Source: Paractinoplanes abujensis (GTDB taxonomy: Bacteria > Actinomycetota > Actinomycetes > Mycobacteriales > Micromonosporaceae). Taken from it: a stretch of 64,000 nucleotides of DNA. This document shows positions 776 through 35,093 of the stretch, piece by piece. The notes under the pieces were generated by a model. It was not told the DNA's origin and did not search any database. It worked only from the letters and a program-made list of their open reading frames with translations. The stretch lies in contig NZ_JACHMF010000001.1 of assembly GCF_014204895.1 (NCBI RefSeq), positions 8,866,001-8,930,000 of the forward strand. The letters run 5' to 3'. The position numbers and the translations under genes are program-made. The stretch's first letter is position 1, and each line of letters starts with the position of its first letter.

Positions 776-1501
776 ATGAACACCCTGCAGCACGCGGCTG
801 AGCTCATCGCCGGAGCGCAACGTCTTGTCGTGTTCACCGGGGCCGGTATGTCGGCCGAGAGCGGCGTGCCCACGTTCCGCGACGCCCTGACCGGTTTGTG
901 GGCTCGTTACGACGCCCAGGCCTTGGCCACCCCCGAGGCCTTCCAGCGCGACCCGGCCCTGGTCTGGGGGTGGTACGAGTGGCGCCGCGAACTGGTCGAA
1001 CGCGTCGACCCCAACCCCGGCCACGAGGCGGTCGCCCGGCTGGACTGCACACTGATCACCCAAAACGTCGACCAGCTGCACGAACGAGCCGGCTCCGAAG
1101 ACGTGCTCCACCTGCACGGCAGCCTGTTCGAGCCGCGCTGCTCAGTCTGCGCCCAGCCGGCCCCGCCTCCCCCCGGCGCGGCCGGGTCCGGTGACGGTCC
1201 GCGCACACCTCCGGCCTGCGGCAACTGCGGTTCCCCCGTACGGCCGGGGGTGGTCTGGTTCGGGGAGGCGTTGCCGGTCGACGTGTTGGAGCGGGCCGTC
1301 GAGGCTGCCGCGGCCGCCGATGTGCTGATCACCGTGGGGACGGCCGGGGTCGTCTACCCCGCGGCCGAGATTCCGCAGGTCACGGCCAGGCTGGGCGGTA
1401 GCGTGATCCAGGTCAATCCGCAGGCCACCCCGCTCGACGAGGTTTGTGCGCTCAACCTGCGGGGCACGGCCGCGGAGGTGCTCCCGAAGATCATCAGGTG
1501 A
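776..1501 (+). CDS. Sir2-family NAD-dependent protein deacylase
   Basis: This is a 241-residue cytoplasmic sirtuin that removes acyl groups from lysines using NAD+. The Rossmann signature GAGMSAESGVPTFRD is near residues 21-35. QNVDQLHERAG follows at about 96-106, with the catalytic histidine in HLHGS at about residue 114. A zinc ribbon is formed by CSVC and CGNC, and the NAD-binding GTAGVVYPAA segment is near the C terminus. Length fits small bacterial sirtuins (class III/U type). The ATG at 776 has only a distant GGAGG, so the exact start is less certain. It stands alone between the repeats and a kinase gene. Confidence 0.93.
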   Translation: MNTLQHAAELIAGAQRLVVFTGAGMSAESGVPTFRDALTGLWARYDAQALATPEAFQRDPALVWGWYEWRRELVERVDPNPGHEAVARLDCTLITQNVDQLHERAGSEDVLHLHGSLFEPRCSVCAQPAPPPPGAAGSGDGPRTPPACGNCGSPVRPGVVWFGEALPVDVLERAVEAAAAADVLITVGTAGVVYPAAEIPQVTARLGGSVIQVNPQATPLDEVCALNLRGTAAEVLPKIIR

Positions 1502-1560
1502 ATGGTTGCAAACCTGGCGAACCGGCACCACGCACCCCTTAAGACGCGGATCATGTCGTC

Positions 1561-3609
1561 ATGGGTGTCATGGCTTACCCCCTCCGGTACGCACTTGCCG
1601 ATCTTGCCCTGGCGCTCAGCCGGGTCTCGCACGATCCTGCCGCTGTGCAGTCCACGGCCGCCCGCGCCGCCGCCGACATGATCGGGGACGGCGCGGGGGT
1701 GCAGCTCCTGCGCGACGACGGCCGCTACGACTCGATCACCTACCACCACATCGACGACGAGCGTTCGGCGTCCATGTCCCGGGTGCTGGACCACGTCGAC
1801 CAGCTCCCCGACGACGACTTCTCGACCGCGCTCGCGGCCAGCCGGCGCCCCCTCGTGCTGGCCGGCGACGGCGTCGAGCCGCTGGCGGGGGAGGAGCACG
1901 AGATCCATTCGGCGGTCCTGTGTCCCGTGATCGTCGACAACACGTACGCGGGTTATCTGGTCCTGACCCGGGAGACGCCCGGCTCGTTCTATTCGACGGC
2001 TGAGGTCGAGCTGGCCCGTGACATCGCGGGTGAGCTGGCCCTGGCCTGTTCGAGCGCCCGCGCCTTGGAGCGGCTGCGGGCCAGCGAGGAGCGCTACCGC
2101 CGGGTCTTGGAGACGATCCCCGAGGGTGTGCTTCAGCTCGATGCGGACGGCGTGGTCACGTACGCGAATGAACCGATCGGCGTGGTGCTCGGCATGCCGC
2201 GGTCGCAGCTGGTCGGCGTGTCCTTGCGGGGTTTCCTCAACGACCAGGGTCAGAAGGAGCTCAACCGCCGCATCAACGAGTGCCGGGAGGGTCGTTCCAC
2301 TGTCGGCGGCACCCGGTTGATGCGCGCCGACGGGTCGCAGCGCAGCGTCCGGATCAGCATGATGCCGCTGATGGGCGATCACGGCGAGTTCACCGGCGTG
2401 GTCTGCATGGTCACCGACACCACCGACCACATCGACGCCCGCGGGCTCAAGCGCCAGCTCGACCATCTGCGCCGGCTCGACAGCCTGGGCCAGCTGATCG
2501 GTGGCATCTCGCACGACTTCAACAACCTGTTGACCGTGGTCGGCGGCTCGGCCGAGATGATCTCGTCGTCGAGCGAGCAGGACAGCCAGCACCACCGCCT
2601 GGCCACCGACATCCTCGAGGCCGTCGGCACGGGGCGTTCGCTGACTCACCAACTGCTGGCGTTCGGCCGCAGCGACGGCAACCGCCCCGAGATCATCCCG
2701 ATTCCCGACCTGCTCACCGACGTCCAATCTTTGTTTTCCCGTACGCTCGGCGAGCACATCGGTCTGGACCTGGCTTTCGGTCCGGATGTCTGGGCGGTGC
2801 GCGCGGAGCGTGGCCCGTTGGAGCAGGCCTTGGTCAATTTGGCCGCCAACGCCCGCGACGCCATGTTGCACGGCGGCATGTTGCGGGTGGCCGCCATGAA
2901 CGAGGTCGTCGAGCCGGGTAAGGGCCCCGAGGGCATGCCCGCCGGCAAGCTGGTGCACATCGTCATCACCGACACCGGCGTGGGCATGACCGACGAGGTG
3001 CGGCAGCGCGCCCTCGAACCGTTCTTCACCACCCGGCCCACGGCGGCGGGTCTGGGCTTGGCCACCACGGCCGGCATCGTGCAGGGCATCGGCGGCCACA
3101 TCGAGCTGGAGTCGGAGCCGCGGATGGGCACCACGGTCCACCTCTATCTGCCCGCGGCCGAGGAGAAACCCGCCTCGGGCACGGGTCGTCAGGGCGCGCC
3201 CACGGTGATCGGCCGGGTCCTGATCGTGGAGGATCAGCCCGAGGTGGCGCAGCTGGTGCAGCGTCTGATCGAGCCGGCCGGGTACGCCATCACGGTCGCC
3301 ACCGACACGTTGCAGGCTGTAAGTTTGGTGGCCGCGGGTCAGCACCCGGACCTGCTGATCACCGATGTGGTGATGCCCACGATGACCGGCCCGGAGCTGG
3401 CCAACGCGCTGCGCACCCACCGGCCCGACCTACCGGTGCTCTACATGTCGGGTTACACCGCGGCGTCGCTCGGGCCGCAGCTGCACCTGGACGACAACAG
3501 CATGCTGATCGAGAAGCCGTTCACGAGGTCGACGCTGCTCGGGGCTATTCGCACGCTGGCCGGCACCCAGCCGTCCAGTGCTCCGAACGACCCCGCCACG
3601 GCCAAGTAA
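1561..3609 (+). CDS. Hybrid sensor histidine kinase (GAF-PAS-HisKA-HATPase-REC)
   Basis: This is a 682-residue soluble hybrid kinase with no membrane segment. A GAF-like domain spans about residues 15-165 and a PAS domain about 172-290. The H-box GGISHDFNNLL puts the phospho-histidine near residue 318. The ATP lid has NARDAM, DTGVGM (about 471) and GLGLAT. A C-terminal receiver domain begins at LIVEDQ, with the phospho-acceptor in ITDVVMP near residue 602 and the conserved Lys in EKPF. The HDFNN box is typical of HWE-unlike hybrid kinases that feed a phosphorelay; no partner gene is adjacent. An in-frame ATG at 1570 is an alternative start, and neither has a strong ribosome site. Confidence 0.93.
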   Translation: MGVMAYPLRYALADLALALSRVSHDPAAVQSTAARAAADMIGDGAGVQLLRDDGRYDSITYHHIDDERSASMSRVLDHVDQLPDDDFSTALAASRRPLVLAGDGVEPLAGEEHEIHSAVLCPVIVDNTYAGYLVLTRETPGSFYSTAEVELARDIAGELALACSSARALERLRASEERYRRVLETIPEGVLQLDADGVVTYANEPIGVVLGMPRSQLVGVSLRGFLNDQGQKELNRRINECREGRSTVGGTRLMRADGSQRSVRISMMPLMGDHGEFTGVVCMVTDTTDHIDARGLKRQLDHLRRLDSLGQLIGGISHDFNNLLTVVGGSAEMISSSSEQDSQHHRLATDILEAVGTGRSLTHQLLAFGRSDGNRPEIIPIPDLLTDVQSLFSRTLGEHIGLDLAFGPDVWAVRAERGPLEQALVNLAANARDAMLHGGMLRVAAMNEVVEPGKGPEGMPAGKLVHIVITDTGVGMTDEVRQRALEPFFTTRPTAAGLGLATTAGIVQGIGGHIELESEPRMGTTVHLYLPAAEEKPASGTGRQGAPTVIGRVLIVEDQPEVAQLVQRLIEPAGYAITVATDTLQAVSLVAAGQHPDLLITDVVMPTMTGPELANALRTHRPDLPVLYMSGYTAASLGPQLHLDDNSMLIEKPFTRSTLLGAIRTLAGTQPSSAPNDPATAK

Positions 3610-3721
3610 CGGGAATAGCGCGACTCCGACCGAAGGTGCGAAACCGGGCGTAAGGGCTTGCCAATCGATCCGGACAAAAAGCAATATTCCGGGGCACTGT
3701 CCGCTTCGGAAGGACCTTCGA

Positions 3722-5530
3722 GTGACCCAGGATCGCACGTCGGATCGGTCGAGCGCCGGAGTACGCGCCGACACGTACGGCACGTCGACCATGGACCTGA
3801 GCGGGCGGTGCGTCGGCAGCTCGTACGTGCTCCAACGCCCCATCGGGCAGGGCGCGACCGGCACGGTGTGGGAGGCGCTGGACCAGACCTCCGGCACGCC
3901 GGTGGCGGTGAAGCTGCTGCACGAGAGCCTGCTGCGGCAGCCCAAGCTGGTCACCCGGTTCGTGCAGGAGCGCACGATCCTGCGCATGCTGCGACACCGC
4001 AACGTCGTACGGGTGCGCGACCTGTTCAGCGTGGGCGAAACCCTCGGCCTGGTGATGGATCTGGTCAGCGGGGGCAACCTGCGCGACCTGCTGCGCGAGC
4101 AGCACACCGTGCCGCCGGGCGAGGCGGCCCGGCTCACCGCGCAGGTCGCGGCGGCGCTGGCCGAGGCGCACGACCTGGGCGTGGTGCACCGCGACCTCAA
4201 GCCGGACAACATCCTGCTGGCCGTCGAGAACGGCCGCCCCGACACCCGGCTGACCGACTTCGGCGTGGCCCGGATCCTCAACACGCCCAGCATGACCACG
4301 CCCAACGCGGTCGTCGGCACTCCGCACTACATGTCGCCCGAGGCGTTCCACGGCGCCACGGCCAACCCCGCCACCGACGTGTACGCGCTCGGCGTGCTCC
4401 TCTACGAGCTGGTCAACGGCCATCCGCCGTACCTCAGCGACTCGATCCCCGACCTGATGCGCCGCCACCTCGAAGGCAATCCCGTACGCCGCCCCGGCAT
4501 CCCCGGCCCGATCTGGGACGTGATCATGGCGTGCATGGAGCAGAAACCCCGGCTCCGTCCCAGCGCCGCCGAACTGGTGGCCGACCTCTCCGACGCCGCC
4601 CGCCGCTTCGCTGACGTGCCCGCCATGCCCGCGCCGTCGCTGGACTCGCTGTATGACGGGCCGTCCCGCCGCCCCGCGCCGATCCTGCAACCAGCCATCG
4701 ACCCCGTACGGTCCGAGCCCCTGCTGCCGCCGCACCCCGCCTCGATCCCCGCTCCGCGCCGGCCGTCCCCGTCGCGCCGCAACGCCGTCCCGAGCTGGCG
4801 CTGGGCCCGTCCCGGGGCCACCATGTCTTTGATCGCGGCCGCGATGGTCGCCTCCGCCGTCGCCACCACGGCCTGGCACATGGGCCGAGCCGACGACGAA
4901 CGCCGCGACCTGGCCGTGCCCGCCGTGGTCATCGCGCCCCTGTCGCAGGCGCCCTCGTCCCGTTCCGTCCCGACGGTGGCTCAGCCCCGCGCGGCCACGC
5001 CCACGTCCAGTCGCACCCTGACCGGCCATTCCCGTCCGCTCCCGCCACCGGTGGTCACCCCGAGGGCCTCGCCGGCGGCTCCTTCCGCCGTACGGGGAAA
5101 GCCCGCCGCGCGGCCCGCCGCGAAGCGGACGCCGACCCGATCGCCGCAGCCCGAGGCCAAGCCGTACGGCCCCTGGGAATGCAGCACGGGCGTGGCGGTG
5201 GACTGGTCGACCAGGACCGGCGTCGTCGCCAAGCCGTGCCGCATGACCGGTCGCGACGTCCGCTACCAAGCCTCGCTCACCGGCGCCGCGGGCGCGCGCG
5301 GTCGCATCACCATCGTCCTGCGGGAAAGCCGCACCGGCCGCACCGTGGGCACCCCGAAGACCTGCGACAACCTCGACTTCTCCGGCGAGCGCATTGCCAC
5401 CCGCAGCTGTGGCCCCGCCGCGGTCAAACCCGCACGGGGCCGCAGCTACGCGGTGGTCGTCTCGTTCAGCTACATGCGCGAGGGCCGCACCCTGACCGGC
5501 GAGTCCCGCGGTGAGAGCTTCACCTGGTAA
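3722..5530 (+). CDS. Membrane-anchored serine/threonine protein kinase
   Basis: A Pkn-type kinase of 602 residues. The kinase domain covers about residues 30-295, with GQGATGTVW glycine loop, VAVKLL lysine (about 64), HRDLKPDN with catalytic Asp about 158, DFG about 179 and GTPHYMSPE activation segment. A proline-rich juxtamembrane stretch leads to one membrane helix at about 366-388. The outside part has a Pro/Ser/Thr linker and a small C-terminal domain with four cysteines, a plausible ligand sensor. I chose the GTG at 3722 because GGAAGGA lies just upstream; the open frame begins earlier at 3578. The extracellular domain is not one I recognise (no PASTA repeats). Confidence 0.93.
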   Translation: MTQDRTSDRSSAGVRADTYGTSTMDLSGRCVGSSYVLQRPIGQGATGTVWEALDQTSGTPVAVKLLHESLLRQPKLVTRFVQERTILRMLRHRNVVRVRDLFSVGETLGLVMDLVSGGNLRDLLREQHTVPPGEAARLTAQVAAALAEAHDLGVVHRDLKPDNILLAVENGRPDTRLTDFGVARILNTPSMTTPNAVVGTPHYMSPEAFHGATANPATDVYALGVLLYELVNGHPPYLSDSIPDLMRRHLEGNPVRRPGIPGPIWDVIMACMEQKPRLRPSAAELVADLSDAARRFADVPAMPAPSLDSLYDGPSRRPAPILQPAIDPVRSEPLLPPHPASIPAPRRPSPSRRNAVPSWRWARPGATMSLIAAAMVASAVATTAWHMGRADDERRDLAVPAVVIAPLSQAPSSRSVPTVAQPRAATPTSSRTLTGHSRPLPPPVVTPRASPAAPSAVRGKPAARPAAKRTPTRSPQPEAKPYGPWECSTGVAVDWSTRTGVVAKPCRMTGRDVRYQASLTGAAGARGRITIVLRESRTGRTVGTPKTCDNLDFSGERIATRSCGPAAVKPARGRSYAVVVSFSYMREGRTLTGESRGESFTW

Positions 5531-6954: not shown

Positions 6955-8145
6955 ATGGCCAAGAGCCAGTTCGTTCGTACGAAGCCGCACGTCAACATCG
7001 GCACGATGGGGCACGTCGACCACGGGAAGACGACCCTCACCGCCGCCATCACGAAGGTCCTCGCCGACCGCGACCCGGCCTCCAACCGGTACGTGGCGTT
7101 CGAGGGCATCGACAAGGCCCCGGAGGAGGCCGCCCGCGGCATCACCATCACCATCGCGCACGTCGAGTACGAGACGCCCAACCGGCACTACGCGCACGTC
7201 GACATGCCGGGCCACGCCGACTACGTGAAGAACATGATCACGGGCGCGGCTCAGGTCGACGGGGCGATCCTCGTGGTGAGCGCGCAGGACGGCTCGATGC
7301 CGCAGACCCGCGAGCACGTGCTGCTGGCCCAGCGGGTCGGTGTGCCGCACCTGGTGGTGGCGCTCAACAAGAGCGACGCCGTGGACGACCCGGAGCTGCT
7401 CGACCTGGTCGAGCTCGAGGTCCGCGAGCTGCTGAGCGAGTACGGGTTCCCCGGTGACGAGGTGCCCGTCGTGCGGGTCAGCGCGCTCAAGGCCCTGGAG
7501 GGCGACCCGCGGTGGGTGAAGTCCATCGTGGACCTGCTCGACGCGGTCGACGAGTACGTGCCGATTCCGCCCCGTGAGCTGGGGGAGCCGTTCCTGATGC
7601 CGATCGAGAACGTGCTCACCATCAGCGGCCGCGGCACCGTGGTCACGGGCAAGGTCGAGCGGGGCACGCTGCGCGTCGGCGAGCCGGTCGAGGTTGTCGG
7701 GCTCGGGCCGACCATCGCGACGGTGGCGACCGGGCTGGAGACGTTCGGCAAGTCGCTCGAGACCGCCGAGGCCGGTGACAACGCGGCGATCCTGCTCCGT
7801 GGCATCAAGCGCGAGCAGGTGGAGCGCGGTCAGGTGGTGGCGATCCCGGGTTCCGTGACCCCGCACCAGAAGTTCGAGGCGCGGATGTACGCCCTGACCA
7901 AGGAGGAGGGTGGCCGGCACACTCCGTTCGAGGCGAACTACCGGCCGCAGTTCTACTTCCACACCACCGACGTGTCCGGCGGTATGGACCTCGGTGACGT
8001 CGACCTGGTCATGCCGGGCGACACGCTGGACAAGGTCACGGTGACGCTCGGCAAGCCGGTCGCGCTCGAGGTGGGCGTCGGTTTCGCCGTACGGGAGGGG
8101 AACCGGACGGTGGCCGCGGGCACCGTCACGGCGCTGCTCGACTGA
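6955..8145 (+). CDS. tuf3: Elongation factor Tu, divergent EF-Tu3-type paralogue
   Basis: This is a 396-residue EF-Tu, the GTPase that delivers aminoacyl-tRNA to the ribosome. All G motifs are intact: GHVDHGKT (G1), RGITI (G2), DMPGHADY (G3), NKSD (G4) and SAL (G5). Domains 2 and 3 follow in normal order. The sequence departs from housekeeping actinobacterial EF-Tu (for example [20 protein letters not shown] and [11 protein letters not shown]) and resembles Streptomyces EF-Tu3 as I recall it. The gene is monocistronic, not in a str operon with fusA. The ATG at 6955 is preceded by GAGAAG. Such extra copies are associated in the literature with stress or elfamycin tolerance; here that is inference. 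Confidence 0.88.
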
Positions 8146-28059: not shown

Positions 28060-29307
28060 TCAGTAGTTCGCGACCGTGAATGTGGAGCCGCTGGAGATGT
28101 CCGAGACGGTGATGCCGGCCGGGGTGACGGTCGGAGTCAGCGTCGGGTCGTTGGTGGCACCGGTCTTGGTGGCGCCGTTCGACACGACGGTCAGGGTGTA
28201 GGTGCCCTCCGGCACGATGGCGTTAGCCGCGGCGCCGGTCGTGCTGGTCAGCTTGCCGGTGGCCAGGTTGAGCTGGCAGATCAGCTCGCTGTCGCTGATG
28301 ATGACGACACCGGTGCAACGGGCGACCGGGCCGTTCGTGTAGACCGACGTGGTGGTGCCGGCGTTATACGCGCCGTCCACGAGGAAGACCTGCGAATTGG
28401 CGTTCGCGGACGCCCCGTTGGGAGCGTCCGTCGCCGCTGTGAAGCTACCAAAGTTCTGGGCGAGGAAGTTCGACCCCAGAACGTCGACGTAGACCGGGTT
28501 GGACGAAGTGGCAAGCGTGTTGCTGGCCGTGTTGGGCGAGATCACGATGCCGTTGGAGAACGTGAAGGCGTTCTGCTTGGTCACGGTGCCGGCGGGCGTC
28601 GTGACCGCCAGCGCCACCGTGCCCGAGGCGCGGTACGGGGTGACGGCGGTGAAGCTGGTGCTGCTGATCGGCGTGATGTTGGTCAGTGCCACGCCGCCCA
28701 GCGTCGCGGAGATCTGCCCGGCCGTGGTCGGGAAGCCCGTACCGGACACCGTGATCGTGCTGCCGCCCAGCGCCGGCCCGGAGGCCGGGGAGACGGCAGT
28801 CGAGGCGAGGGTGGCCGGTGCGGCGACCGAGTAGGTGGCCGAGCCGATGATCGGGTCGTTCGCCGTCGAACTGGCGTAGATGCAGACGTTGTATCGCGTC
28901 GTCGCCGCCGAGGACGGCGACAGCGGCAGCGGGGGCACGGTGATCGTCGCCTTGTTGTTGGAGATCTTGACCGTGTCGCTGGCGCCGGTCAAGACGTTAC
29001 CGGCTGTCGCCGTGGTCGGCGTGACGGCGGTCGACTGCGCGGTGGTGTACGTCGACGCGCAGGCAGGGAGCGAGAAGGTGGTGACTGGGGCGGTGACGCC
29101 GGTCAGCCACGCCGTCGTCGCCGAAGCAGTGATCGTGACGGCGGGGTTGGGAGTCCCGGACGGACCCGTGGACGAGCTCAAGGTCAGCGGCACGTTGGCC
29201 GCGAACGCCGGGCTGATGGTCGCCGCGGTGACGGTCACCGTCGCTGCCGCCGTGGCGAGGCCGGCGCGGACCAGCCGCGACCGGACGCTGGACTGAGTCT
29301 TGCTCAT
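28060..29307 (-). CDS. Secreted IPT/TIG-domain protein, copy 1
   Basis: This is a 415-residue exported protein. The signal peptide ends at ISPAFAAN. The mature part is Thr/Ala/Ser-rich beta sandwich. One clear IPT/TIG domain is seen at STAVSPASGPALGGSTITVSGTGF with VGGVALT-type strand pairing (LGGVALTNITPIS), followed by a segment with NGIVISPNTA and paired cysteines (ARCTGVV and LICQLN). No catalytic motif is visible; a surface or matrix binding role is likely. AGGAGG precedes ATG 29307. It is divergent from a paralogue at 29588. Confidence 0.82.
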   Translation of the reverse strand: MSKTQSSVRSRLVRAGLATAAATVTVTAATISPAFAANVPLTLSSSTGPSGTPNPAVTITASATTAWLTGVTAPVTTFSLPACASTYTTAQSTAVTPTTATAGNVLTGASDTVKISNNKATITVPPLPLSPSSAATTRYNVCIYASSTANDPIIGSATYSVAAPATLASTAVSPASGPALGGSTITVSGTGFPTTAGQISATLGGVALTNITPISSTSFTAVTPYRASGTVALAVTTPAGTVTKQNAFTFSNGIVISPNTASNTLATSSNPVYVDVLGSNFLAQNFGSFTAATDAPNGASANANSQVFLVDGAYNAGTTTSVYTNGPVARCTGVVIISDSELICQLNLATGKLTSTTGAAANAIVPEGTYTLTVVSNGATKTGATNDPTLTPTVTPAGITVSDISSGSTFTVANY

Positions 29308-29587
29308 GCGATGTCCTCCTGCGGTTCTGGAAAACCGCTTCGGTCAAGTGGGTGAGGCCCATGCAGATCAACATCGCCGGGCCATCTCGCGACGAAGCGT
29401 AACTTGCGGTATCTGAGTAATTGCCCAGAGTTACAAAGTTTGTTGGGTCTGACCGTATGGGTCCGGTATGACGGCGTTGCCGGGTACTGCCAACGGCTTT
29501 CGCGTTCTCCGCAATTCAGGAGCAAGGCTGTCGTTACGCTGCTGACGGCTGCTCGAGACCCGTCACGTTTGAGGAGGTCGGCCGCCC

Positions 29588-30823
29588 ATGACTTCGCGTA
29601 CCGCCCGGCTCGCCGGCGGTGGGGTGGCCTTCGTCACCCTCACCGCCCTGATGCTGGCCGCCTCGACGCTTCCCGCCTCCGCCGCTGCGCTGCCTATGAC
29701 GCTGAGCAGCGTCACCGGCCCCAGTGGCGGTGGCAGCACTGTTCTCGGCTCGGTCACGGCCACTTCGTCCGTGCCGATACCGTTCCCGGCCGGAACGCAA
29801 CCGACGGTCCAGTTCCAGTACGCCGCCTGCAGCGCCTCGGCCCAGCCGGTCACTCAGATCGCCGGCACCGGCACGACCCTGACCGCGGGCGTGCTGACCG
29901 TCGATCCGGCTACGGTCAAGCGGGTCACCACGACGAAGGTCCTGTTCCAGGTGCCGTCCGGCCCGTACCCCGCCCAGGATGCCGACGGTAATCCGAGCAC
30001 CGTGAATCCCGGCGGGCTGGTCCTGGTCGGCGCGCAGACCTCGGCCAGGTGGAACGTCTGCGTCTATGACAGCGGGTCGACAACCGCGAGCACCTTGTTG
30101 GCCACCTCGTCGTACACGGTGGCCGTGCCACCGACGATCACGTCGATCATTCCGGCCAGCAGCCCGGCCGGCGGTGGGCAGCTGATCACGGTTAACGGCA
30201 CAGGGTTCACGGCGGCGGGCACCACGGTCTCGATCGATGGCGTCGCTCTCACCGATGTCAGGGTCGCGGCGAACGGTCTGAGCCTCAGCGCCACGACGGG
30301 GCCGCATGCCGCGGCGAGCGGTCTGGCGCTGACTGTCAGCACGCCGGGCGGACCAGTGAGCAGTCTCAACCCCGACAACGACGACACCACCGCCGATGCG
30401 CCGATCCCGTTCGCCTACAGCAACGGCATCGTGATCGCCCCGAACACGGCGGTGTCCGGCTCGGCCGTGACGCTCGATGTCGGTGGCGCTGGGTTCTCGC
30501 AGCTCACCTTCGACCAGGGCGGTACGCCGACGAGCGGCCAGGCCCACGTCTTCCTAGTCAAAGACGCGTACGACCCAGCGGCGAACCGGGGGGTCGCGGA
30601 GTGTGTCGTCCTCTCGGTGATCAGTGACAACGAGTTGGTGTGCTCCCTCGACCTGTCCGCCGACCAGTTGAACCCGAGCGACAGCTCGACCGTGGCCGGC
30701 GTTCCCGTGGCCGAGGGCGCCTACATCGTCACAGTTGTCGCCAGCGGAGACCCGGCCGCCGGGTCCACGGCCAAGCCGACGATCGTGAGCAGTGGCGCGA
30801 CGTTCACTGTTGGACCCTACTGA
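29588..30823 (+). CDS. Secreted IPT/TIG-domain protein, copy 2
   Basis: This is a 411-residue paralogue of the protein at 28060 with the same order of parts. Signal peptide to TLPASAAA; LPMTLSSVTGPSGG opening strand; RWNVCVYDSGS; TIG domain at TSIIPASSPAGGGQLITVNGTGF; NGIVIAPNTA; cysteine pair AECVVLS and LVCSLDL; ends SGATFTVGPY. GAGGAGG lies 9 bp before ATG 29588. The 280-bp gap to copy 1 is relatively AT-rich and holds a GCGGTT/AACCGC dyad at 29321-29338; both promoters must lie there. Confidence 0.82.
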   Translation: MTSRTARLAGGGVAFVTLTALMLAASTLPASAAALPMTLSSVTGPSGGGSTVLGSVTATSSVPIPFPAGTQPTVQFQYAACSASAQPVTQIAGTGTTLTAGVLTVDPATVKRVTTTKVLFQVPSGPYPAQDADGNPSTVNPGGLVLVGAQTSARWNVCVYDSGSTTASTLLATSSYTVAVPPTITSIIPASSPAGGGQLITVNGTGFTAAGTTVSIDGVALTDVRVAANGLSLSATTGPHAAASGLALTVSTPGGPVSSLNPDNDDTTADAPIPFAYSNGIVIAPNTAVSGSAVTLDVGGAGFSQLTFDQGGTPTSGQAHVFLVKDAYDPAANRGVAECVVLSVISDNELVCSLDLSADQLNPSDSSTVAGVPVAEGAYIVTVVASGDPAAGSTAKPTIVSSGATFTVGPY

Positions 30824-30869
30824 CCGTAGCGGGGCGGGACCGTTCCCGACCGCGCCGCTTTGTGCTAGG

Positions 30870-30906
30870 TTCTTCTCATACCGAGAATTACTCGTACTGA
30901 GAAGAA
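30870..30906. promoter_or_regulatory. 37-bp dyad operator before the Nudix regulator
   Basis: The arms TTCTTCTCA (30870-30878) and TGAGAAGAA (30898-30906) are exact inverse complements. Inside, CGAG (30882-30885) and CTCG (30891-30894) are also symmetric about the same centre at 30888. The site ends 13 bp before the start of the NrtR-like gene. Its position and length suit an autoregulatory operator; a terminator for the TIG gene is the other reading. Confidence 0.7.
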
Positions 30907-30919
30907 CTTGGAGCCGGGA

Positions 30920-31654
30920 ATGGACGAGAAGGACTTCCTCGCCGGGTACGACCCGCGGGCCTTTCCGGCGGTTGCCGTCACCACCGACGTGGTGGCGTTG
31001 ACCATCCGGGCCGAGCGGCTCTGTGTGCTGCTGGTCGAGCGGGGTGAGCAGCCCTTCGCCGGGCGTCGGGCGCTGCCCGGCGGGTTCGTCCGGGGCGAGA
31101 CGCTCGACGAGGCGGCGCTGCGGGAGCTCGAGGAGGAGACCGGCGTGCACCTCGAGCGGGTGCATCTGGAGCAGCTCAAGACGTACGGGAATCCGGATCG
31201 TGACCCCCGGATGCGCGTGTTCTCGGTGGCCTACCTGGCGTTCGCGCCGAGTCTGCCCGAGCCGGAGTCCGGCAGCGACGCGTCCGGGGCCTACTGGGTG
31301 CCGGTCACCGAGGCCACCGGCCTGGCCTTCGACCACGACACGATTCTGGCCGACGGGCTCGACCGGGCCCGTTCCAAGATTGAGTACACGCCGCTGGCCA
31401 CGGCGTTCGCGGGCGACGAGTTCACGATCTCGGAGTTGCGGCAGATCTACGCCGTGGTCTGGGGGGAGGAGCTGCACGCGGGCAACTTCCATCGCAAGGT
31501 GCTCTCGGTGCCGGGCTTCGTGGAGAGCACGGGCGAGACGGCGGCCAGGGGCGGGGAGCGGGGCGGGCCCAAGCCCAAGCTCTACCGGGCCGGCGACGCC
31601 CGGTTGTTGCATCCGGCGCTGCTGCGGCCCACGCGCGAGGACGACGTGCGATGA
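30920..31654 (+). CDS. NrtR-like regulator (Nudix domain plus winged helix)
   Basis: This is a 244-residue protein. A Nudix fold covers about residues 15-150, with the box region GGFVRGETLDEAALRELEEETG nearly canonical, so hydrolysis is possible. The C-terminal winged helix (FTISELRQIYAVVWGEELHAGNFHRKVL) is the DNA-binding part of NrtR regulators, which sense ADP-ribose or related nucleotides. ATG 30920 follows GGAG at 6 bp. Its stop overlaps the next start (ATGA), making it the first gene of a four-gene operon behind its likely own operator. Confidence 0.88.
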   Translation: MDEKDFLAGYDPRAFPAVAVTTDVVALTIRAERLCVLLVERGEQPFAGRRALPGGFVRGETLDEAALRELEEETGVHLERVHLEQLKTYGNPDRDPRMRVFSVAYLAFAPSLPEPESGSDASGAYWVPVTEATGLAFDHDTILADGLDRARSKIEYTPLATAFAGDEFTISELRQIYAVVWGEELHAGNFHRKVLSVPGFVESTGETAARGGERGGPKPKLYRAGDARLLHPALLRPTREDDVR

Positions 31655-32532
31655 GGTTCGCGGAGGCCGTGGCCCGGATCGAGCGGGCCCGCACGTTCGC
31701 CGAGCTGGGGGAGACGTACCGGGAGCTCGCGAAAGCCGTGCACCCGGACGCTGTGAGCGAGGCCGAGAGCGCGACCGCCACCCGCGCTTTCGCCACGCTG
31801 TCGCGGCTCTACAACGAGCGGGCCCGGGTGGTTGTCACCGGTGACATCGCCGATCTGGTGGTGGACGGGGGCACCCTCAACAAGATCCCGCGCAGCCCGG
31901 GCGACAACGACCTGATGGAGGCCGAGGCGGCGGCCCTGACCGGGCTGCACGCGCAGGGCGATCCGAAGTATCGGTTCTATGCGCCGCGGCTGCGGGACAG
32001 CTATCTGCACGAGGATCACGAGCGGAAGCGACGCCGGGTCAACACCATCGAGCGGCTGGACGGGTTCGTCGCGCTGAGCGAGCTGAAACGGGCGATAGAT
32101 CCGCGCGACGCGGCCTGGATGTGGCGGCGGCTGCTGGTCGGGCTGGGCTGGGCCCACCGCGCCGGCGTGATCCACGGGGCGGTGCTCGAGGAGCACGTGC
32201 TGATCGATCCCGAGAAGCACGGTCTCGCGCTCGTCGACTGGTGTTACTCGGGCCCGCGGGTCAAGGCGATCGTCGCCCGGCAGCGGGAGGCGTACCCGCC
32301 CGAAGTTCTCACGTCCAAGACCGCCGGGCCGGCCACCGACATCTACATGGCCACCGGGCTGATGACCCGGCTGATGCACGACCCGCCCCGGGCGCTGCGG
32401 CGGTTCGCCGACGGCTGCCTGTACGACGCGCCGCGGATGCGCCCGCAGGACGCCTGGCGGCTGCTGCACGAGCTCGACGAAACCCTCCACAACCTTTACG
32501 GGCCGCGTGAGTTCCGGCCCTTCCAGTTCTAG
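31651..32532 (+). CDS. J-domain / pseudokinase fusion protein
   Basis: This is a 293-residue cytoplasmic protein. Residues about 15-55 (YRELAKAVHPDAVSEAES then FATLSRLYNE) form a J-domain-like helix pair with an HPD motif, the element by which J proteins stimulate Hsp70. Residues 70-290 resemble a protein-kinase fold: LNKIP in the VAIK place, MEAEAAAL for helix C. The catalytic loop reads HGAVLEEHVLI, lacking the HRD aspartate and the Asn, and DFG is replaced by DWC. It is thus probably a pseudokinase. It is coupled to the Nudix gene by ATGA and lies 12 bp before the VWA gene. Confidence 0.75.
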   Translation: MRFAEAVARIERARTFAELGETYRELAKAVHPDAVSEAESATATRAFATLSRLYNERARVVVTGDIADLVVDGGTLNKIPRSPGDNDLMEAEAAALTGLHAQGDPKYRFYAPRLRDSYLHEDHERKRRRVNTIERLDGFVALSELKRAIDPRDAAWMWRRLLVGLGWAHRAGVIHGAVLEEHVLIDPEKHGLALVDWCYSGPRVKAIVARQREAYPPEVLTSKTAGPATDIYMATGLMTRLMHDPPRALRRFADGCLYDAPRMRPQDAWRLLHELDETLHNLYGPREFRPFQF

Positions 32533-32544
32533 AAGGAGCAAGTC

Positions 32545-33501
32545 ATGGGAAGCGGACGCTGGTCCACCGATGTCTACACCGCCGCCGACAACTACCGCCG
32601 GGCCACCGGGGCGAGCGCCTTCGCCTACAGCGACAGCGGCGCCCGCAAGGCCCACCCGGCCCTCGACCCCAAGGGTGTGACCGAGCGGGAGAGCCGCGAC
32701 AGCGACGAGCACCCGTTCAGCACCCCGATCGCCGTGTTGTTCGACGTCACCGGTTCGATGGGGGGCGTGCCGCGGGTACTGCAGACCAAGCTGCCGCAGC
32801 TGCTGGGCCTGCTCACCCGCAAGGGTTACGCCACCGACCCGCACATCCTGTTCGGTGCGGTCGGCGACGCCACCTGCGACCGGGTGCCGTTGCAGATCGG
32901 CCAGTTCGAGTCGGACAACCGGATGGACGAGGACCTCGCCCGCATCGTGCTGGAGGGCGGGGGCGGCGGTCAGATGACCGAGTCGTACGAGCTGGCCATG
33001 TACTTCATGGCCCGGCACACCGCGCTCGACTCGTTCGAGAAGCGGGGGCGGCGCGGCTACCTGTTCCTGATCGGCGACGAGATGCCGTACCCGAAGGTCA
33101 ACCCGCGTGAGGTCGAGAAGTTCCTGGGCGAGCGCACCCAGCCGATCAGCACCGAGGAGCTGGTCGTCGAGCTCCAGCGGACGTTCGACGTCTACTACCT
33201 GCTGCCCACCGCGGCCGGTCACGGCGGCAACCGTGACGTGCTGCGGCGGTGGCGCGGGCTGCTCGGACAGAACGTGCTGGAGCTCGACGACCTCGACGCG
33301 GTGTGCGAGACGATCGCGCTCACCGTCGGTCTCGGCGAAGGCACCATCGACCTCGACGCCGGGCTGGACGACCTGGTCGAGTCGGGCTCCGCTTTCTCGG
33401 CCACCGTCGGCAAGGCCCTGGCGCCGCTGCAGCGTGGGGGCGTGGTGCGGCGGGGGACGCTGCCGATCGGCAACGCGGCGTCGGGGAACGAACGGCTGTG
33501 A
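32545..33501 (+). CDS. VWA-domain protein
   Basis: This is a 318-residue soluble protein. The MIDAS motif is FDVTGSMGG at about residues 71-79, and GDEMP near residue 175 probably supplies a later metal ligand. The N-terminal 60 residues (ADNYRRATGASAFAYSDSGA) are unfamiliar but look conserved. There is no export signal, so it acts inside the cell, likely as a metal-dependent scaffold. AAGGAG precedes ATG 32545. Its stop overlaps the GTG of the PurA-like gene. Confidence 0.88.
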   Translation: MGSGRWSTDVYTAADNYRRATGASAFAYSDSGARKAHPALDPKGVTERESRDSDEHPFSTPIAVLFDVTGSMGGVPRVLQTKLPQLLGLLTRKGYATDPHILFGAVGDATCDRVPLQIGQFESDNRMDEDLARIVLEGGGGGQMTESYELAMYFMARHTALDSFEKRGRRGYLFLIGDEMPYPKVNPREVEKFLGERTQPISTEELVVELQRTFDVYYLLPTAAGHGGNRDVLRRWRGLLGQNVLELDDLDAVCETIALTVGLGEGTIDLDAGLDDLVESGSAFSATVGKALAPLQRGGVVRRGTLPIGNAASGNERL

Positions 33502-34700
33502 ACGACCACGTCGCGGTGGTCGACCTCGGTTACGGGGACGCCGGCAAGGGGACCGTGGTCGACGCTCTGTGTGCGTACTCGGCCAAACGGGCGGTCCTGC
33601 GCTTCAACGGGGGAGCGCAGGCCGCGCACAACGTGGTCACCGAGGACGGCCGGCAGCACACGTTCGCGCAGTTCGGGTCGGGCACGCTGCGTGGTGTCCC
33701 GACCCACCTGACCCGGTACGTGGTGGTCGACCCGCTCGCGCTGGCGGCCGAGGCGGCGGCTCTGGGCAACCCGTTCGAGCTGCTCACGGTGGACGGGGAC
33801 GCTCTGCTCGCCACTCCGTGGCATCGTGCGGCCAACCAGCGGCGGGAACGGGCGCGCGGCGGGGACCGTCACGGTTCGTGCGGCATGGGCGTGGGCGAGA
33901 CCATGGCGTACGCAGCGAGTCACCCCGGCGCGCCACGAGTGTCGGACACCCTTTCCCGTACGAGGCTCCGGCGTCGGCTGGCCGCGGTGGAGTCCGACCT
34001 CGGGCCGGCCGGGGTGCCGCTCGACGACGTCGTGGACGCGTTCCGGGCGTTCGGCCGCACCGTGGCGATCGTCGGCCCCACGTACGGGGAAAGGTTGTTG
34101 CGGGAAGGCCCGTGCGTGTTCGAGGGCGCGCAGGGTGTGCTGCTCGACGAGTGGCGCGGCTGGCACCCGCACACCACCTGGTCGACCACGACGTTCGGCA
34201 ACGTGTCGGAGCTGTGCGGCTCGTTCACCCGGATCGGCGTCGTGCGCACCTACACGACCCGGCACGGGGCCGGGCCGTTCGTGACCGAGGACGCGACGCT
34301 CGACCTGCCCGAGGGGCACAACGCGACGGGGGAGTGGCAGGGCGCCTTCCGGGTCGGGCACTTCGACGCGGTCGCCCACCGGTACGCGGTCGAAGTGGCG
34401 GGCGGGGTCGACGGGCTGGCCGTCACGCACCTCGACGTCCCGGAGCGCTGCCCGGCCCTGCGGATCTGCGAGTCGTACACGATCGACGGCCGGCCCTGGA
34501 CCCGGATCGTTCCCGGGCCCCCTCGCGATCTCGGTTACCAGGAGGCGCTCACCGCCCGCCTGCACCAGGCCCGGCCGGGCCCGCTGACCCGCCCCGACGA
34601 CTGGGCCGCGGCCATCGAGAACCTTCTGTCGGCCCCGGTGGAGATCGAGTCGTACGGGCCCGGATCGGCCGACAAGAAACTTCTGAATCGCATTCCTTAG
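33498..34700 (+). CDS. Adenylosuccinate-synthetase-like (PurA-like) enzyme
   Basis: This is a 400-residue member of the adenylosuccinate synthetase family, which uses GTP to join a nucleotide and aspartate. It differs from housekeeping PurA: the GDEGKGK loop reads GDAGKGT, RFQGGNNAGHT reads RFNGGAQAAHN, and the IMP-binding GTTxRGIGP region reads GSCGMGVGE. FEGAQGVLLD and STTTFG resemble the family's later motifs. It is probably not the purine-pathway enzyme but acts on another nucleotide or ligand. It is the last gene of the Nudix/J-pseudokinase/VWA operon. Confidence 0.83.
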   Translation: MNDHVAVVDLGYGDAGKGTVVDALCAYSAKRAVLRFNGGAQAAHNVVTEDGRQHTFAQFGSGTLRGVPTHLTRYVVVDPLALAAEAAALGNPFELLTVDGDALLATPWHRAANQRRERARGGDRHGSCGMGVGETMAYAASHPGAPRVSDTLSRTRLRRRLAAVESDLGPAGVPLDDVVDAFRAFGRTVAIVGPTYGERLLREGPCVFEGAQGVLLDEWRGWHPHTTWSTTTFGNVSELCGSFTRIGVVRTYTTRHGAGPFVTEDATLDLPEGHNATGEWQGAFRVGHFDAVAHRYAVEVAGGVDGLAVTHLDVPERCPALRICESYTIDGRPWTRIVPGPPRDLGYQEALTARLHQARPGPLTRPDDWAAAIENLLSAPVEIESYGPGSADKKLLNRIP

Positions 34701-34715: not shown

Positions 34716-34802
34716 TCAAATAAAATCGTGGTGTAGTTTCGGCATTTCCGGGAAATGGTTTATCGTCGACGTGACCGGGTTGCGAAAATGGAGGCGATGA
34801 CG

Positions 34803-35093
34803 ATGACTCAGATGCTGGAAATGCCCCGCGTGCAGACCTGCACCGTGACGAGCTGTGGCTACAACCACGACGGCTGCACCGCCTTCGCGGTCACTATCGG
34901 CAGCGCCATCTCCGCCGAGTGCGACACCTACGTGACCGGTGACAAGGGCGGCACGGGCAAGGCGTTGGCGCAGGTGGGCGCGTGTAAGCGCTCCGACTGT
35001 ACGCACAACCAGAACCTCGAGTGCAAGGCCCCCGCGATCGTGGTCGGCGAGTCCGGCGACAAGGCCGACTGCATGACGTACGAAAAGGGCTGA
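34803..35093 (+). CDS. DUF1540 protein with two cysteine-rich domains
   Basis: This is a 96-residue protein made of two DUF1540 units. Each has four cysteines: CTVTSCGYNHDGC with CDTY, and CKRSDCTHNQNLEC with CMTY. The pattern suggests metal binding. GGAGG at 34790-34794 fits ATG 34803 better than ATG 34797. An iron-box-like palindrome upstream suggests repression when iron is plentiful. Its own terminator follows. Confidence 0.85.
   Translation: MTQMLEMPRVQTCTVTSCGYNHDGCTAFAVTIGSAISAECDTYVTGDKGGTGKALAQVGACKRSDCTHNQNLECKAPAIVVGESGDKADCMTYEKG

Follow-up and report, generated by a model that had tools for sequence, protein, structure and literature searches.

What is the task of an operon that sets a Nudix-type regulator in front of a J-domain/kinase-fold protein, a VWA-fold protein and a relative of adenylosuccinate synthetase (PurA)? 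The question is raised by four co-directional genes of Paractinoplanes abujensis, here called N, K, V and A, which together with a predicted operator were confirmed at positions 30869–34700 of a 64,000-nucleotide stretch of the genome (contig NZ_JACHMF010000001.1, positions 8,866,001 to 8,930,000 of the forward strand). This whole stretch is called the window, and coordinates refer to it unless another locus is named. PurA is the enzyme that produces adenine nucleotides in most organisms; PurZ, the best known of its phage-borne offshoots, rewrites DNA. We found that A falls outside both of these groups and that K, V and A form a core that bacteria share with phages. The parts of the locus are as follows.

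30869..30907, no strand: predicted operator (sequence, conserved in bacterial loci)
30920..31654, + strand: N, NrtR-type Nudix and winged-helix regulator, 244 aa (Pfam)
31651..32532, + strand: K, J-type region and protein kinase fold (Pfam below cut-off, motifs, predicted fold)
32545..33501, + strand: V, VWA/integrin-betaI-fold protein, 318 aa (predicted structure)
33498..34700, + strand: A, PurA-superfamily enzyme, 400 aa (Pfam, tree, active-site comparison)
33534..33554, + strand: altered P-loop-like motif GDAGKGT in A (compared with PurA GDEGKGK)

The joints between the genes are those that a first-pass annotation of the sequence had described, namely a 4-base ATGA overlap of N and K (31651–31654), a 12-bp gap between K and V (32533–32544) and a 4-base GTGA overlap of V and A (33498–33501). 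The dyad ahead of the genes, which it had given as 37 bp, measures 39 bp. N most likely starts at ATG 30920, preceded by GGAG at 30910–30913, with TTG 30908 as a possible alternative; the ATG is preferred because relatives begin with a similar M.e..FLA.YDP. The closest named relatives of the window proteins are from Actinoplanes and Paractinoplanes, and the own-genome searches covered the single-contig genome of 9.33 Mb.

A matches the Pfam family PF00709 (Adenylsucc_synt) with an E value of 2e-55 and 188.7 bits, against a cut-off of 27. It is not the only PurA of the organism, an outcome that the first-pass annotation had named as fatal to its view, as the genome encodes a separate, ordinary PurA (E 7e-176, versus 9e-55 for A). 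In a maximum-likelihood tree of 44 rows, the 34 A-type rows form one clade with support of 100/100 and a stem of 2.29 changes per site, while five PurA and four PurZ rows fall outside it. A 735-kb phage supplied one of these PurA rows, which adjoins the A clade with weak support (88/82). The tree contains some long branches, and midpoint rooting was used for drawing only.

The residues of A were compared across 109 bacterial and 78 viral rows, with one best A per locus; the structure alignments left out loci L003–L007. Positions follow what we take to be the E. coli PurA numbering, and the numbering of the organism's own PurA runs one below it in the later part. Where PurA has GDEGKGK, A has GDAGKGT, in which Asp13 and Lys16 are kept and Lys18 is lost. 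All 109 bacterial rows and 77 of the 78 viral ones retain Asp13 (the remaining viral row has a gap); Lys16 is kept in 109 and 77, His41 and Gln224 each in 108 and 77, and the GTP-site Asp333 in 107 and 76. The ligands that characterize PurA, by contrast, are replaced in nearly all rows: Asn38 by Gln (108 bacterial and 76 viral rows), Thr129 by Cys in 107 bacterial rows and by Cys (42) or Val (32) in viral ones, Arg143 by His in 85 bacterial rows and by various residues elsewhere, Thr301 by Gln (107 and 73) and Arg305 by Phe (90 and 56). Val273 is also changed, to His (107 and 77). A PurA relative with altered substrate sites, as had been proposed from the window alone, is thus what the wider comparison finds.

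Apart from Arg143 and Arg303, the roles that we give to active-site residues are those that we assume for PurA. According to PMC8342488, the Arg143 equivalent is the partner of the substrate's phosphate group, and Arg303 makes contact with both ribose and aspartate. Because the catalytic residues are kept and the phosphate and acceptor ligands are replaced, A most likely still uses GTP to activate a 6-oxo group, but the purine and the acceptor site would both differ from those of PurA. Its substrate is probably not inosine monophosphate (IMP), because three ligands of the 5'-monophosphate (Asn38, Thr129 and Arg143) are changed.

Like A, PurZ/PurZ0 of Z-genome phages is a phage-borne PurA paralogue with a changed substrate, but its residue pattern is the reverse. 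The four PurZ rows have Ser in place of Asp13 and keep Asn38, Thr129, Thr301, Arg305 and an Arg at the place of Arg143; Ser for Asp13 is absent from all 109 bacterial and 78 viral rows of A, which lie in a separate clade. A PurA homologue of Flavobacterium phage MaF61 (L221, 2959–4302), with GSSGKGK including this Ser and with a terminase gene beside it, groups with PurZ in the tree. PurZ is treated in PMC12884076 and PMC8342488; the former places 251 PurA and 151 PurZ among 767 PF00709 sequences, and the remaining sequences presumably include the A clade.

The first-pass annotation had not seen that a core of K, V and A is common to phages, which makes the observation larger. Among 50,697 phage records, in which duplicates of one phage count twice, V matches 208, K 191 and A 225, the last number including some ordinary PurA; Mycobacterium phage records account for 189 of the matches of each protein; the record opened, Mycobacterium phage TinyTim, is a Bixzunavirus. 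In viral contigs V is encoded in 275 of 302 pattern-matched stretches. The best 80 of these 275 were taken as viral loci: 64 have the gene order K-V-A and two have K-V, V and A occur together in 78, and N-type genes are also present in three. The pairwise divergences of K, V and A correlate with r of 0.89–0.94 across 68 viral loci and 0.77–0.85 across 73 bacterial loci, while 999 permutations reach at most 0.19; this correlation is explained as well by shared descent as by contact. In the tree of A, actinobacterial rows nest among phage rows, and an Agrobacterium plasmid row stands with Rhizobium and Vibrio phage rows. These placements suggest at least two moves of the module between phages and bacteria, which may have gone in either direction.

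The widest cluster in the phage flanks besides K, V and A comprises 17 of the 80 loci; clusters of 52 and 22 loci were set aside, their representatives being antisense open reading frames (ORFs) over V. The Pfam set for these flanks consisted of 141 chosen plus-strand proteins out of 496 listed. Among the 25 families listed of 74 were R2K ATP-grasp (two families), DNA ligase, HAD_SAK_2 RNA-repair, Rv2179c-like and Radical SAM proteins, each with 3–6 of the 141 proteins.

The same genes keep together in bacteria. V was found in 32 of 200 genomes of the order and in 49 of 60 genomes of the genus, the own genome being included in each count. In 30 loci from V-positive order genomes (own included), K is present in 29 and A in 30. 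A search for A that scored nine candidates per genome found it at E ≤ 1e-60 in 27 of the 200 order genomes, all 27 being among the 32 with V; of the five V genomes without A at this threshold, four have A beside V, and the fifth (G122) was left out. A larger sample took the best 80 of at least 542 confirmed loci, all from actinobacteria by title. K is missing from six of these, A from one and N from two, and three of those loci (L068, L094 and L099) are cut by contig ends. Plasmid copies occur in Rhodococcus, Tsukamurella and Agrobacterium, where N is downstream or divergent, and K, V and A were confirmed in the three loci opened. Conserved bacterial neighbours form clusters of at most 23 of the 80 loci, mostly within one genus. 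A phylum-wide search gave 2 of 396 genomes, but with only five candidates scored in each genome this is not taken as a rate of occurrence. Scattering of the four genes in related genomes, which had been named in advance as evidence against the module, was not seen in the loci examined.

K consists of a J-type region at residues 1–57, with the HPD motif at 31–33, and a protein kinase fold at 58–293. The Pfam matches to DnaJ (E 3e-4) and Pkinase (E 5e-4) are both below the curated cut-offs; in the predicted structure the N-terminal region is helical and the kinase fold is bilobal. HPD is present in 64 of 66 bacterial K and 61 of 69 viral K, in counts that left out proteins outside set lengths. 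Of the earlier claim that the kinase part has lost both HRD and DFG, the first half stands and the second does not: in the window protein HGA stands in place of HRD, whereas DFG reads DWC and retains its aspartate (D196). Also retained are the lysine of VAIK (K78) and the glutamate of alphaC (E92). The catalytic Asp of HRD is replaced by Ala in all 66 bacterial K and is present in one of 69 viral K.

V gave no match in a Pfam scan. Its model (mean predicted local distance difference test score, pLDDT, 90.9) is of the VWA/integrin-betaI type, a Rossmann-like fold with the MIDAS (metal ion-dependent adhesion site)-like residues D67-x-T69-x-S71 and D178, in agreement with the first reading of this gene. 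In many Mycobacterium phage records (for example H243–H259) only residues 1–173 of V are matched. Some of the Mycobacterium phage V matches, or the gene beside A, are annotated as HNH endonuclease (CharlieB gene 252; Pinkcreek gene 241), and the V gene of those phages seems to have been invaded by a homing element. The Pinkcreek genome note places a PurA-like gene close to genes for a serine/threonine kinase and an HNH endonuclease (PMC9476963).

N matches the Pfam families NUDIX (1e-19) and NrtR_WHD (2e-11), both above cut-off and with the Nudix domain first, which bears out its assignment as an NrtR-type regulator with a winged helix. Its residues 5–220 align to structure 3gz5, which we take to be Shewanella NrtR, and its relatives of solved structure include AraR and NadQ regulators; the fold searches list the best domain per row, and other families could go unlisted. 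The Nudix box of the window protein is intact. A palindromic element is present at the operon in the sequence, as in NrtR regulators.

The predicted operator has 39 bp, GTTCTTCTCA-N19-TGAGAAGAAC, and ends 12 bp before the ATG of N. It holds two tandem 11-bp palindromes of the CTCANNNYGAG type, with the consensus GTTNTTCTCANNNYGAGW-N3-WCTCANNNTGAGAANRAC. When up to four mismatches were allowed, 65 GTTCTTCTCA/TGAGAAGAAC sites with spacing 19 were found in 63 of the 80 related bacterial loci. The same loci contained 0–2 sites at nine other spacings and none with reversed halves, and the predicted operator exceeds chance, though sites in related loci are not independent. Of the 63 operators, 60 lie within 80 bp of the extrapolated start of the regulator and two more at 83 and 89 bp, which brings 62 within 90 bp; 17 of the 80 bacterial loci have no predicted operator at this stringency. 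In the last of the 63, an Actinoplanes locus (L048), the operator precedes K, with the matched regulator gene about 3 kb upstream. A Streptosporangium locus (L109) has two copies, the first ahead of the operon and the second 52 bp ahead of V, with K and N further upstream.

A blind pattern search of 61 genomes of the family found the predicted operator in 12 (own included), at one place each, and the control found none; in the other 11 genomes it stands before the same regulator, followed by K (nine) or V (two). In the own genome it occurs, at up to three mismatches, at one place only, with one mismatch; a backwards control also gave one place. It is absent from all 80 viral loci scanned. This distribution, before the same regulator, at one place in the own genome and in no viral locus, indicates that N is a dedicated and most likely self-repressing switch. 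The conservation of the operator and of K-V-A across loci agrees with the earlier claim that the four genes form one regulated unit.

A connection with nicotinamide adenine dinucleotide (NAD) is seen in two phage operons. One (L143, 6243–12611) has the order NrtR type, V, nicotinamide mononucleotide (NMN) adenylyltransferase/Nudix type, NAMPT, A and K; its NMN adenylyltransferase half is proposed from length and gene order, Pfam giving the Nudix part alone. The other (L171, 2039–9073) has the order NrtR type, NMN adenylyltransferase/Nudix, NAMPT, two small genes, K, V and A. Gene neighbours in both are 2–75 bp apart or overlap, and in the scanned flanks these are the two loci with NAMPT beside K-V-A. 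In L006 and L140, V has a NADAR gene nearby. The Rhizobium phage locus L007 contains metallophosphatase, HAD hydrolase, PRTase_3 and Nudix genes at 1257–5265, a cluster that we presume to resemble Ter-type nucleotide biosynthesis modules, and a HIRAN gene beside V (7679–7996).

The reading that we hold, tentatively and somewhat short of an even chance, is that of a repressor-controlled nucleotide-ligase module in which K and V are chaperone-type partners of A, and which is used for nucleotide repair or for signalling under phage-host stress or stress of other kinds. N would bind the 39-bp operator before its own start and hold the operon off. A nucleotide-type ligand would release it, the leading guess being ADP-ribose or another NAD-derived nucleotide, from the NrtR family; with its Nudix box intact, the window N may in addition break down this ligand by hydrolysis, which would reset the switch. 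A would then activate a 6-oxo purine with GTP, as PurA does, but its substrate would be other than IMP and its acceptor site is changed at Thr301 (to Gln) and Arg305 (to Phe). V would act as a metal-dependent VWA protein; K would join a J domain to a kinase fold that has no catalytic activity but probably binds nucleotide. As the regular partners of A, K and V would most likely present or remodel A or its target with host DnaK, which K may recruit. The product of A, possibly a signal, would serve NAD/ADP-ribose-linked nucleotide repair or signalling under stress or phage attack.

Several observations weigh against this proposal. The strict Nudix box is found in 52 of 83 N-type proteins, and most phage copies are without N, which is thus the usual bacterial regulator and not part of the K-V-A core. 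Eleven of the 80 viral loci have V and A only, and Rhizobium and Vibrio phage loci (L006 and L007) have V and A without a match to K. Since the VAIK Lys is present in 36 of 69 viral K and the DFG Asp in 26 of 69, ATP binding by K is not general. In A, Thr239 and the Arg following Arg305 are kept, and the acceptor and phosphate sites are therefore not wholly lost; the residue after Thr239 is Trp or Arg in most rows. No lyase or other pathway enzyme is conserved beside the phage module in the flanks of the 80 viral loci.

The NAD link is weakened by whole-record counts. These covered 49 of 83 carrier phage records, short viral contigs being dropped, and 34 of 87 control contigs, those above 70 kb, which were picked by a DNA-polymerase motif, include larger genomes and carry V in two cases. 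NADAR occurred in 14 of 49 carriers versus 7 of 34 controls and NAPRT/NAMPT in 7 of 49 versus 18 of 34, so that NAD genes are not enriched genome-wide in the carriers. With the regulator family and the two phage operons for the link and the whole-record control against it, the link is therefore local and suggestive and not general; a general NAD link, tested genome-wide against control records, is unsupported. Of the earlier proposal of a nucleotide- or NAD-linked stress or conflict system, the conflict part is strengthened by the phage copies and the NAD part by two phage operons, and the genome-wide comparison lends it no further support.

Other explanations account for parts of these data. 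The J domain and the VWA fold both belong to protein-handling families, and the K-V-A order is kept in phages without a widely conserved metabolic neighbour, as would be expected of a chaperone-type assembly or modification machine in which some protein is the target of K and V, and A, using a nucleotide, modifies a protein and not a metabolite; MoxR-VWA pairs have been proposed for virion assembly (PMC7824862). We consider such a machine unlikely, since bacterial chromosomes carry the module too, under a Nudix-type regulator of its own, no AAA+ family is among the 25 listed of 74 phage-flank families, and the residues for small-molecule chemistry are kept in A. The kept 6-oxo catalytic residues, the three changed 5'-monophosphate ligands and the spread of A over phages and bacteria would also suit an enzyme that aminates a 6-oxo purine beyond the 5'-monophosphate (of the ITP/dITP type, or deamino-NAD), for detoxification of deaminated purines or counter-signalling, for example against deaminase immunity. 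The lack of a widely conserved flanking gene in phages speaks against this, and we regard it as quite improbable.

Two readings that stay closer to known enzymes fare far worse. Phage annotation and the PHROG name, 2-aminooxy adenylosuccinate synthetase, as well as the phage PurA relatives known to make modified-base precursors, would favour a PurZ-like role in which A makes such a precursor for DNA. We rejected it as very improbable: position 13 is Asp in A but Ser in all four PurZ rows, the clades are separate, chromosomal bacterial copies exist, and no widely conserved neighbour is a candidate datZ, mazZ or Z-polymerase, although these were not searched for by name. That A is a spare PurA isozyme, making adenylosuccinate under other control, is equally hard to credit. 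It has the same Pfam family and the kept GTP-site Asp in its favour, but nearly every row of A has other residues at several of the positions that bind the IMP phosphate and aspartate, phages carry A with V and mostly with K, and the ordinary PurA is present in the own genome; it was rejected as the principal explanation.

The nucleotide-ligase module can be stated in a bolder form, which is possible but which we would sooner doubt than assert. A would carry out a third chemistry of the PurA superfamily, as a chaperone-coupled, GTP-dependent ligase acting on a purine larger than IMP (of the NAD/ADP-ribose type, or a triphosphate) with an acceptor site unlike that of PurA. It would be portable together with the J-pseudokinase and the VWA protein, and would be used by phages and by NrtR-switched bacteria, on both sides of a nucleotide-based conflict.

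The module overlaps with several known systems. With PurA, A shares the fold family PF00709 and the kept Asp13, Lys16, His41, Gln224 and Asp333; it differs in the six replaced positions described above and in its clade. With the NrtR family, N agrees in domain order and sequence, and its predicted operator is a 39-bp double palindrome at one place in the own genome. The ARG-centred Nudix/WYL-TF systems that Iyer et al. 2022 predicted together with vWA chaperones (PMC9503650) likewise combine an NrtR-like Nudix regulator and a vWA protein in a conflict-type operon. The window operon is without ARG, phosphatase and ARPP and has a PurA-like enzyme and a J-pseudokinase instead; no ARG domain was matched by Pfam in the four window proteins, and the terms 'PurA', 'adenylosuccin', 'DnaJ' and 'J-domain' do not occur in the main text of that paper.

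NARP2, a phage system of NAD+ replenishment that we take to consist of NAMPT and NMN adenylyltransferase, shares an operon with K-V-A and an NrtR-type regulator in L143 and L171. Its genes are not among the four window proteins by Pfam, nor are they seen beside most K-V-A loci. NARP2 is named in PMC11984713 and PMC12028318. Among PADLOC families there was none for V or A, and K (kinase-type, best 7e-7) and N (1e-5) matched weakly. We rate the N-K-V-A assembly as new, each of its folds being known; as the first-pass annotation had supposed, no described pathway with this set was found in the literature searched, and a description elsewhere is possible.

Around the operon, three of eight neighbouring ORFs have a Pfam match and a scan found no family in the other five. 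Two IPT/TIG-domain proteins in the opposite orientation adjoin the upstream side (28060–30823), and a DUF1540 protein lies just 3' of A (34755–35093), outside the conserved unit.

For the PurA family, these results add another deep offshoot, tied to the same VWA protein and usually to the same J-pseudokinase. A-type genes in the 189 Mycobacterium phage records and in hundreds of other viral and bacterial contigs are mostly annotated as adenylosuccinate synthetase or PurA-like, and PurA mis-annotation is hereby flagged in many genomes. The carrier mycobacteriophages grow in Mycobacterium smegmatis, which makes deletion and metabolite assays feasible. If A makes no new nucleotide, the module would be an example of a J-pseudokinase and a VWA protein serving one enzyme; if it does, that nucleotide would be a new currency of phage-host conflict.

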